The translations under genes were made by a program, and so were the position numbers. From Candidatus Poribacteria bacterium (GTDB taxonomy: Bacteria; Poribacteria; WGA-4E; WGA-3G), in NCBI GenBank assembly GCA_022822085.1, contig JAJECK010000104.1:1-64000 (forward strand): a stretch of DNA of 64,000 nt, read 5' to 3'. Of this stretch, positions 25,984 to 28,317 are shown in pieces. How positions within the stretch are numbered: the first letter of the stretch is position 1; each line of letters begins with the position of its first letter. The notes below the pieces were generated by a model. The model saw only the letters and a list, made by a program, of their open reading frames with translations. It was not told where the DNA came from and did not search any database.

Positions 25984-26258
25984 TTATAGTGGAATCTATA
26001 ATTACTTGCACACCTATGTCCTGTCCACTTTCCAGTTTGCGCACACACTACTGCACAAACTGGATGAAGATTAAAAAATAATTTCGGTAATGTGGCGAGG
26101 TTAGGAAACCTCGCCAGCGGGGGAGCGAAACTTGCTTCGTACGGATAAAAAATTACCGAATTAATAAATTAATCTTCATGAAGTTTGTGGGACAGCACAG
26201 TCCGGCTGTTTAAGTGCCACGGATCAAAAGCGTGTAAATATTTTGGATTTTACTTTAA
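25984..26258. repeat. MITE-like element family A with family B element nested inside
   Basis: Its outer ends (TTATAGTGGAATC at 25984 and GGATTTTACTTTAA at 26245-26258) and interior match the 143-300 element, but at the CCAAACTGG position it is interrupted by the 136-base family B element (26054-26189). It lies directly upstream of the sigma-FtsZ gene. Confidence 0.75.
26054..26189. repeat. MITE-like element, family B, copy 2
   Basis: 136 bases from CACAAACTGGATGAAGATTA to the inverted end TTAATCTTCATGAAGTTTGTG (one base trimmed each way), with the same GGCGAGG...CCTCGCC core hairpin as 18873-19007. The two copies differ at only about ten positions by eye. Confidence 0.88.
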
Positions 26259-26339
26259 ATTCACGATTTTACAATTTTTTTAAACCAATTCTTCATTTTA
26301 CTACCTCTGTATAACCAAATTCTAATTGGGATAATATTT

Positions 26340-28100
26340 ATGCACCACAATTTTGATGATTTAAACAACCTGATGGATGCAGATTTGATTCGTCTTGTTC
26401 AATGCCAAGATGAAAATGCGTTCACAGAATTGGTATCACGGTTTAGTCCACGAATTTGGAATGCCGTTGTTCAAAATTCCAGACAAACACGAGACGCAGA
26501 AGAAATACTTATGGATATCTGGTTGGCTGTTTGGCAGAACGTTATTGGTCTACGTAAGGTTGAAAGTTTTGGGGCATGGTTACATAAAATTGCACATACT
26601 GCTTGTAATAGATACTATGCTTCAAAAAGGAATCAACAGGACGAAATCATAATGAGTTATGAAGATTTAGCTGCCCAGATTGATAGAGAATCAGAGCAAA
26701 GATTCCAAAGTGCAAAACTGCGAGCGGATGCAAGAGAAGCAGTTCATCAACTACCACAAAAAGTGCGTCCTATCGCACAAATGTATTACTTAGATTTATC
26801 GAGTGTTAAGGAAATTGCAGATGAATTTAACTTACCGATTGGAACGGTAAAGTCTAAACTTAGTGAAACGCGAAAACTATTACAAAAAGAGTTTGAAATC
26901 GAATCAAAAAGGAGCAAATCAATGACACAAAAGCCTGAAAAACCTGAAACTGAAAAAACTATATGTAAGATAATTGGTGTCGGTGGTGCAGGATGCAGTG
27001 CGGTGAAACAGTTAATCAATGATAAAGCGAATGATATTGAATTTTACGCAATTGACACTGATACTGAGACACTTAATGCATGCGACGAGTTAATCAGAAT
27101 ACAAATTGGTGAAAAGGCCACACTGGGTCAAGGAACAGATGGGAGTCTTGAACTTGGTAGGAGGGCAGCAGCAGAAAACATAGATCAACTTCAATCTGTT
27201 GTGTCAGATGCTGATATGATCTTTATTATCGCTGGTATGGGTGGTGGAACGGGGACAGCCGTTGCCCCAGTTATCGCATCAATTGCACGATCAAAGAAGA
27301 TTCTAACAGTCTGCTTAGCAACTCGACCTTTTTTTGAAGAAGGACTACGCCGAATAGAAATAGCGAAACACGGATTGTATGAACTTAGCGATGAGCCCGA
27401 TTCAGCTGCAGATGCTATTATCTTAGTCCCTAATCCGGACATATTAAATCGAGATAGTCTGATTGATTCGTTTAGTGAAATGATACAGTACAACGAACAT
27501 ATACTTATTCACAGTGTTAAATCCATATTAGATATATTTACTACTGCTGGTGAGATTAATGTTGACTTTGATGACATACAGACTCTATTCCGTAATCAAG
27601 GAACAATGGTTATGGGTTTTGGGAAAGCAACGGGTGAAAATCGTGCGAAAATTGCTGCGCAAAACGCTATAGAATCATCATTATTTCAAGAAGAGAGTGT
27701 TACGAAAGAGCCTTCAATGTTAGTGAATATATCATCTCCACCCAATTTTACAATGCATGAACTTGATCAAGCAATGTGTGTCATTGGAGAGAAATATCAG
27801 GATGCAAGTCCTATCTTTGGATTAGTCTATGATGATAAATTAGAACAAAACGATGAAGTCATAGTAACTGTAATTGCAAGTGGATCTGAATCACAAAGTC
27901 CATCTACTCCATCTATTTCTACCAGAAGTCAGGGAAATACTTCAAAACAAGATCAAGAAACAATATCTTCAACTGATTCAGATACTGTAAAATCGTCAAA
28001 TCTTAGTTTTTATGGTATGCTGTTTGGGCAGGAACATATTCCAGAGAGTGTCCAAATAACAATTGACAACATTGCATCTATTGAAATATTGCCAGATTAG
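26340..28100 (+). CDS. ECF sigma factor fused to an FtsZ domain
   Basis: A single 586-codon frame. Residues 15-95 are sigma region 2 (RDAEEILMDIWLAVWQNV at 51-68) and 130-182 are region 4 with its helix-turn-helix (VKEIADEFNLPIGTVKSKL). Residues 208-515 are a full tubulin-like FtsZ fold: GVGGAGCSAV (213-222), the GTP-binding signature GMGGGTGTA (299-307), and the T7 loop NVDFDD (407-412), whose acidic residues complete GTP hydrolysis in the neighbouring subunit. A Ser/Thr/Gln-rich linker (515-550) and a short C-terminal segment follow, without the usual FtsA/ZipA-binding tail peptide. At the junction an AAAAAGGAG and an in-frame ATG (codon 195) could start FtsZ alone. No anti-sigma gene is adjacent. 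Both domains are certain; that one polypeptide joins them is what the sequence shows. Confidence 0.9.
   Translation: MHHNFDDLNNLMDADLIRLVQCQDENAFTELVSRFSPRIWNAVVQNSRQTRDAEEILMDIWLAVWQNVIGLRKVESFGAWLHKIAHTACNRYYASKRNQQDEIIMSYEDLAAQIDRESEQRFQSAKLRADAREAVHQLPQKVRPIAQMYYLDLSSVKEIADEFNLPIGTVKSKLSETRKLLQKEFEIESKRSKSMTQKPEKPETEKTICKIIGVGGAGCSAVKQLINDKANDIEFYAIDTDTETLNACDELIRIQIGEKATLGQGTDGSLELGRRAAAENIDQLQSVVSDADMIFIIAGMGGGTGTAVAPVIASIARSKKILTVCLATRPFFEEGLRRIEIAKHGLYELSDEPDSAADAIILVPNPDILNRDSLIDSFSEMIQYNEHILIHSVKSILDIFTTAGEINVDFDDIQTLFRNQGTMVMGFGKATGENRAKIAAQNAIESSLFQEESVTKEPSMLVNISSPPNFTMHELDQAMCVIGEKYQDASPIFGLVYDDKLEQNDEVIVTVIASGSESQSPSTPSISTRSQGNTSKQDQETISSTDSDTVKSSNLSFYGMLFGQEHIPESVQITIDNIASIEILPD
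26906..26924 (+). promoter_or_regulatory. Internal Shine-Dalgarno and ATG at the sigma/FtsZ boundary
   Basis: AAAAAGGAG (26906-26914), a seven-base gap, then ATG (26922-26924), in frame as codon 195 of the fusion gene. It falls just after sigma region 4 and just before the FtsZ fold, so a stand-alone 392-residue FtsZ could be made from the same message. Confidence 0.7.
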
Positions 28101-28202: not shown

Positions 28203-28317
28203 AAAGTAGTAGGCACACTCCGTGTGCCGTCCTCGGACATCCTCAAGCCTACAACACTCCGTGTGCCGTCCTCGGACATCCTCAAGTCTACGGCACACGG
28301 AGTGTGCCTACTACTTT
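28203..28317. repeat. Long palindrome with internal direct repeat
   Basis: The left arm AAGTAGTAGGCACACTCCGT and the right arm ACGGAGTGTGCCTACTACTT are perfect inverted complements. Between them the unit ACACTCCGTGTGCCGTCCTC with its continuation to CTCAAG is directly repeated about 47 bases apart. A partial arm (AGTAGTAGGCACATTCCG) also occurs at 13439. Confidence 0.85.

Follow-up and report, generated by a model that had tools for sequence, protein, structure and literature searches.

The window, the 64-kb stretch of DNA that was analysed, lies on contig C63 of the Poribacteria genome G000 (5.63 Mb in 158 contigs). It includes an ORF on the forward strand (26340–28100) of 586 codons that begins with ATG and contains no internal stop. 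The first part of this ORF (26340–26903, +) encodes an ECF sigma factor, with Pfam matches to Sigma70_r2 (PF04542; residues 31–97, E 5e-7) and Sigma70_r4_2 (PF08281; residues 131–181, E 1.5e-7) and without region 3, and the fusion scores 71.8 bits against the NCBIfam sigma70-ECF model, above the cut-off of 42.9. The remainder encodes an FtsZ, made up of a Tubulin/FtsZ GTPase domain with the GGGTGTA box (26967–27446, +; residues 210–369; Pfam, E 9e-33), the T7 (synergy) loop NVDFDD, which fits NxDxxD (27558–27575, +), and the C-terminal domain FtsZ_C (27600–27884, +; residues 421–515; Pfam, E 6.5e-15). Taken alone, the FtsZ part matches solved FtsZ chains (E 6e-64, over residues 14–342 of this part). 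The first-pass annotation had claimed that a sigma factor and a full FtsZ core share one frame, and this is confirmed by the uninterrupted ORF, by the Pfam domains and by the independent assemblies considered below; the GGGTGTA signature and the NVDFDD loop are both intact, as it had stated. Against the NCBIfam ftsZ equivalog model, the fusion reaches 268.9 bits and falls below the cut-off of 295.2, and the fused FtsZ should therefore not be filed as the division FtsZ of the cell. Canonical FtsZ copies end with the tail peptide DIPxFLRVQ, and comparison with them showed that the long fusions lack this tail, which is a C-terminal peptide of the FtsA-binding type (D/E-IPxFLR). An AlphaFold model of the fusion, made from five sequences (mean pLDDT 54.9), backs the FtsZ fold only and includes no reliable contact between sigma and FtsZ. 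The fusion gene is flanked by inverted repeats (26054–26189 and 28203–28317 of the window), with 38-nt arms and a perfect 28-nt pair, which resemble small mobile elements or repeats.

There are three FtsZ loci in G000, namely a canonical ftsZ on contig C55 that directly adjoins the FtsA gene, the fusion in the window, and a second, shorter sigma-FtsZ fusion on contig C109. Because a separate canonical ftsZ sits beside ftsA, the FtsZ in the window is a duplicated, extra copy, and the possibility that the fusion is the sole, misplaced ftsZ of the cell was rejected. The first-pass annotation had drawn attention to an FtsZ lying outside an FtsA cluster, and had raised the question of whether a stand-alone FtsZ is found elsewhere in the genome. 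The fusion is indeed separate from the division cluster, but as an addition to an ftsZ that has kept its usual place. In a tree of FtsZ sequences from the Poribacteria phylum only, the long, short and canonical groups each lie on one side of a branch, and horizontal acquisition of the fused FtsZ was not supported.

Of 59 genomes of the Poribacteria family to which G000 belongs, at least 43, closed chromosomes included, have the long form of the fusion in one frame, which supplies the conservation within the phylum by which the first-pass annotation had proposed to judge it. The short paralogue is present in 44 of the 59. At least one of the two forms was found in 56 of the 59 (a count read from tables), and both are missing only from G019 and G022, which belong to one genus, and from G067, which is a fragmented assembly. 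Neither form was found above threshold in 26 genomes of nine other Poribacteria families, an absence that covers those families within the phylum. Four Poribacteria records of another genome collection keep the fusion with 55–64 % identity, one of them a single-contig chromosome of 5.3 Mb; this collection was scanned with a single query and short peptide patterns, a search whose reach is limited to close relatives. Recurrence in independent assemblies, including closed chromosomes, led to rejection of an assembly artefact, and the sigma-FtsZ fusion did not arise by chance either.

The frame is longer in most relatives, at about 1,350–1,450 aa, with the core of a DNA polymerase III alpha (DnaE) following FtsZ. 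This module contains the PHP, polymerase and finger parts, and HhH in some, and is without the C-terminal OB and tau-binding parts. The C-terminal tail of the window protein (27993–28097, +), which ends in IPESVQITIDNIASIEILPD where relatives have IPDMVQWAIENSSPAVALTD, probably derives from the first part of the PHP domain of a DnaE that has been lost. IPESVQ-like tails close both the window copy and the fusion in G010, and they align with the PHP start IPDMVQWAIEN, while the fusion in G020 terminates after EFVHLHNHSEYSLLV. On the FtsZ tree, at least six changes are needed to account for the presence of DnaE, which indicates that DnaE has been lost repeatedly with sigma-FtsZ staying. The ancestral protein was probably sigma-FtsZ-DnaE, from which the window copy would have lost DnaE, leaving a short remnant. 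The reverse arrangement, a related sigma joined straight to DnaE with no FtsZ between, occurs in G012. A tblastn search downstream of the window gene gave no DnaE fragments. Besides the 1,191-aa DnaE on C22, G000 has one further DnaE paralogue, which is truncated (959 aa; L209:388–3264, contig C95). In G063 (L119), a sigma-FtsZ-DnaE frame of 1758 codons continues into unrelated-looking sequence, and is either real or a misjoined assembly.

Pairwise dN/dS values for thirteen pairs of relatives were 0.04–0.20 for sigma, 0.13–0.40 for FtsZ and 0.10–0.18 for DnaE. All three parts are under purifying selection, and sigma is the most constrained segment in most pairs. As the values are well below 1, a decaying pseudogene was also rejected. 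The GGGTGT GTP-binding box is kept in nearly all of the fused FtsZs, and the T7 loop in most of the long ones. However, in G010, which is the closest relative of the window copy, the T7 loop has lost its N and one D. The FtsZ of the short paralogue ends just before the T7 loop, with a common ending near SISEFHSST, and represents the GTP-binding half without either the T7 loop or the C-terminal domain. With this predicted domain content, the short paralogue cannot hydrolyse GTP by the normal route. Because some copies have lost T7 residues (G010) or the T7 loop together with the C-terminal domain (the short paralogue), polymerisation cannot be the mechanism common to all fused copies. In an alignment of the DnaE modules, the two polymerase aspartates and the later FD/LD aspartate, whose roles we take to be those of the corresponding E. 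coli DnaE residues, are intact in nearly all, the exceptions being G065/G059 and G012, where position D401 is changed. A plainly dead DnaE module was rejected on the same grounds, as the polymerase aspartates are kept in all but these.

FtsZ and DnaE are not the only modules found behind sigma factors of this type. In G070, which is a closed genome, and in G062, the locus of the window fusion, with the same permease gene in front, is occupied by a fusion of sigma to DnaN, the beta clamp (L200:480–2243 and L201:5265–7028, respectively), with a strong internal Shine-Dalgarno (SD) before the DnaN start, and close relatives of this sigma-DnaN were found elsewhere in five further genomes. Many members of the family also have DnaN fused to sigmas of a second, unrelated ECF clade, and the gene is often separated by a few kilobases from that of the short sigma-FtsZ (L260:12787–14529, L265:6254–8017, L269:3623–5359 and, in G000 itself, L276:606–1637). 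The G000 copy, on C81, has a frame break inside DnaN. DnaN joined to FtsZ without a sigma was found in two genomes, G019 (L182:2429–4510) and G022. In G000, the nearest sigma paralogues carry WD40 propellers, and in the sigma tree the long and short sigma-FtsZ proteins group together, beside these ECF-WD40 paralogues, with moderate support (80/97). About 68 ECF-like matches were found in G000, mostly in frames of 800–1,050 codons, which makes sigma-plus-module the usual layout in this genome. Judged by the predicted domains, FtsZ is one of several modules (with DnaE, DnaN and WD40) on this sigma lineage, and an explanation that relies on FtsZ polymerisation only fails to cover the family.

Other ECF fusions in G000 are to a prolyl-oligopeptidase-type S9 peptidase and to a beta/gamma-crystallin domain (L279:455–3361 and L275:527–1894). 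At L164:1269–2228 and L165:1066–2037, an ECF sigma precedes another, partial sigma or helix-turn-helix-like module (PF12645), and an internal SD is present here too. The ECF-WD40 genes form tandem clusters (L009–L015 and L166–L173), some of which adjoin stand-alone WD40 genes that resemble the fused module.

At the junction of sigma and FtsZ in the window, an internal SD, AGGAG (26910–26914, +; pairing energy −8.1), lies 7 nt before an ATG (26922–26924, +). Comparison of the junctions showed that this start is conserved, as GTG in two relatives, and that an SD-like stretch with a start codon is found close behind region 4 in all 58 of the fusions read. The linker residues vary (KRSKSM, KENTM, RRGTM, KGKTM or RRKTV) while the SD and the ATG or GTG persist. 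In all 39 long fusions compared, the junction SD is stronger than the one that precedes the first start codon of the gene (median −8.1 versus −4.2 kcal/mol), though these are related genes and not 39 independent tests. When codons were reshuffled with the residues fixed, the signal for a single gene was modest (median p 0.11), since part of the motif follows from the encoded residues. The case for an internal start lies instead in the persistence of the SD despite residue change. Because the SD and start are kept while the amino acids drift, sigma-FtsZ and free FtsZ are both probable products of the gene.

A junction SD with a start codon is also found in the ECF-WD40 paralogues, in the sigma-DnaN fusions of both clades and in the S9-peptidase fusion. 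Canonical ftsZ genes have weak ribosome-binding sites, and the SD at the FtsZ junction was therefore not inherited from ftsZ, while that of the second-clade sigma-DnaN resembles the native site of canonical dnaN. This last match, the strong internal SD and start, and a sigma/FtsZ linker predicted to be disordered in the AlphaFold model would all be expected if sigma and FtsZ were two ordinary proteins in one frame, acting separately after internal initiation or proteolysis, with the joined form an unimportant by-product of a stop lost from an operon. However, a neutral by-product should sometimes regain its stop, and although the first-pass annotation had raised the possibility of a stop ahead of the ATG at 26922 in relatives, neither a stop nor a frameshift was found at any of the 58 sigma-module junctions. 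The FtsZ junction SD is also unlike that of canonical ftsZ and is common to the ECF-WD40 genes, and we regard separate action of two ordinary proteins as improbable.

Upstream of the window gene is a candidate ECF-type promoter, with a −35-like element, TTTTTTTAAACC (26275–26286, +), which is conserved with a spacing of 17 nt to CCTCTTTATA, and a −10-like element, CCTCTGTATAA (26304–26314, +). The arrangement TTTTTTTAAACC-N17-CCTCTTTATA is conserved upstream of the long fusions, the short fusion and the ECF-WD40 paralogues. The AAAC-like −35 and CTC-containing −10 are of the ECF kind (TTTAAACC-N17-CCTCTTTATA), and in G000 the motif is family-specific. Genome-wide, only seven sites with up to one mismatch were found, each of them upstream of a member of this sigma clade, and a control with the reversed pattern gave none. 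The eighth clade member in G000 has a site with two mismatches, a level at which chance matches are common. We infer that the sigma recognises its own putative promoter, TTTAAACC-N17-CTCTTTATA, and the location of this motif upstream of all eight clade members in G000 suggests autoregulation. No clear target promoters beyond the sigma's own clade were found genome-wide in G000 with this motif.

ECF sigma factors that are controlled by fused C-terminal extensions, with no anti-sigma, are an established principle (PMC8999054), and by this rule the fused FtsZ would be the sensor. The reading we favour, with a probability of about 0.5, is that the window gene encodes an autoregulated ECF sigma with a C-terminal sensor module, here a duplicated FtsZ, that would read the state of the division machinery. 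Translation from a weak ribosome-binding site would yield the full sigma-FtsZ, and translation from the stronger internal site would yield free FtsZ, so that one gene would have two products. Free FtsZ could pair with other free copies, with copies attached to sigma or with the canonical FtsZ. Whether the sigma is free to join RNA polymerase and fire its own promoter would then depend on how this pool is assembled or bound, under the control of GTP. Since the GTPase site of FtsZ is built at the interface of adjacent subunits (PMC8936486), assembly could be reported by a fused FtsZ, and the free form made from the internal start could tune the response. What the sequences show directly is the fusion with its conservation, the selection on each part, the conserved internal start, the family-specific promoter and the exchange of modules; we infer the production of both proteins, activation of the promoter by the sigma and gating of the sigma by the state of FtsZ. 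Gating by polymer state, which the first-pass annotation had proposed, is possible and is the leading functional guess.

The output might instead be division itself. The sigma would then serve to drive its own gene, and what matters would be the additional FtsZ, in free or fused form, which would co-assemble with or cap canonical FtsZ and so delay or reshape division. The internal start is predicted to be stronger than the sigma start, no other promoter targets were found in G000, and the short half-FtsZ present in 44 of the 59 genomes should block the addition of subunits, the active site being intersubunit (PMC8936486), all of which would fit. We give this alternative little credence, as it leaves WD40 or DnaN on the same sigma lineage unexplained and the sigma is the part that is most constrained in most pairs.

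The autoregulated sensor reading can be widened to the other modules. The general rule would be that the sensor of the sigma is a copy of a division or replication machine whose state the cell reads. This would amount to a new class of regulator, made up of an ECF sigma and an attached, functional copy of the cell's FtsZ, DnaE or DnaN, with sigma-bound and free module coming from one gene and with transcription directly reading the assembly state or the inhibition of the engine; we advance this tentatively, at somewhat less than even odds. The choice of targets is accounted for equally well if the modules are integrated decoys, that is, baits for phage proteins or antibiotics directed against these essential targets, with binding of the inhibitor altering the fused module and switching the sigma on. 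Three unrelated essential targets are fused to sigmas of two ECF clades, natural products against DnaE and DnaN exist, and canonical copies coexist, so that catalysis by the fused copies would not be needed. Purifying selection also persists although catalytic residues are lost in some copies (DnaE position D401 in G065/G059 and G012, and the T7 loop of the short paralogue). However, a pure bait has no need of the catalytic residues that most fused FtsZ and DnaE copies retain, no match to a defence gene family was obtained, and no defence or resistance genes were found under the same promoter. We consider decoys unlikely. A known anti-phage defence system was rejected, as PADLOC gave no family, only weak partial matches to known defence families (best E 4e-4 over 71 residues, in the area of region 4).

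The window protein resembles the known ECF sigmas with a C-terminal extension (PMC8999054) in that regions 2 and 4 are followed by a module presumed to replace the anti-sigma, and in that its sigma groups with WD40-carrying paralogues. It differs from them in that the module is a copy of core division or replication machinery (FtsZ, and in relatives FtsZ-DnaE, DnaE or DnaN) and has its own in-frame ribosome-binding site. Compared with FtsZ, the window copy has the complete GTPase and C-terminal domains, the GTP box and the T7 loop, but it lies behind a sigma and outside the division cluster, scores below the NCBIfam cut-off and has no peptide of the FtsA-binding type. In Bacillus subtilis, sigma-F and SpoIIE likewise tie sigma activity to the FtsZ-dependent divisome (PMC4714977), and we use this as a working analogy only; there the link is a chain of anti-sigma, anti-anti-sigma and phosphatase, whereas in the Poribacteria fusion FtsZ is attached covalently. 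One frame with two starts, the short form being the C-terminal part, is also found in Cas11b (PMC11899642) and VirF (PMC5101355). Unlike those, the internal start recurs across the FtsZ, DnaN, WD40 and S9 peptidase modules fused to sigmas. The first-pass annotation knew of no described sigma-FtsZ fusion, and we likewise found no description in the open-access literature; no sigma-DnaE or sigma-DnaN fusion was met in the open-access literature searched by FtsZ terms. An ECF sigma with a C-terminal extension is already known, whereas these modules and the two-product layout are apparently new, at least to us.

How gene expression is coupled to division and replication in bacteria is an open question, and the usual answer is long relay chains. 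Here, physical joining of a sigma factor to FtsZ, the replicative polymerase or the sliding clamp has happened repeatedly, in two lineages of sigma, and the joints have long been kept. With the link being covalent, one or two proteins would be enough to examine the coupling directly in vitro. The recurrence of an in-frame ribosome-binding site at the joint also suggests that some fusion genes with a single frame actually give two products, which gene annotation would miss.

In G035, which belongs to another family, an FtsZ paralogue (L256:1428–2861) has an N-terminal extension that has no Pfam match but by eye is like a ribbon-helix-helix with a zinc-finger region. This is possibly an independent fusion of a DNA-binding protein to FtsZ.
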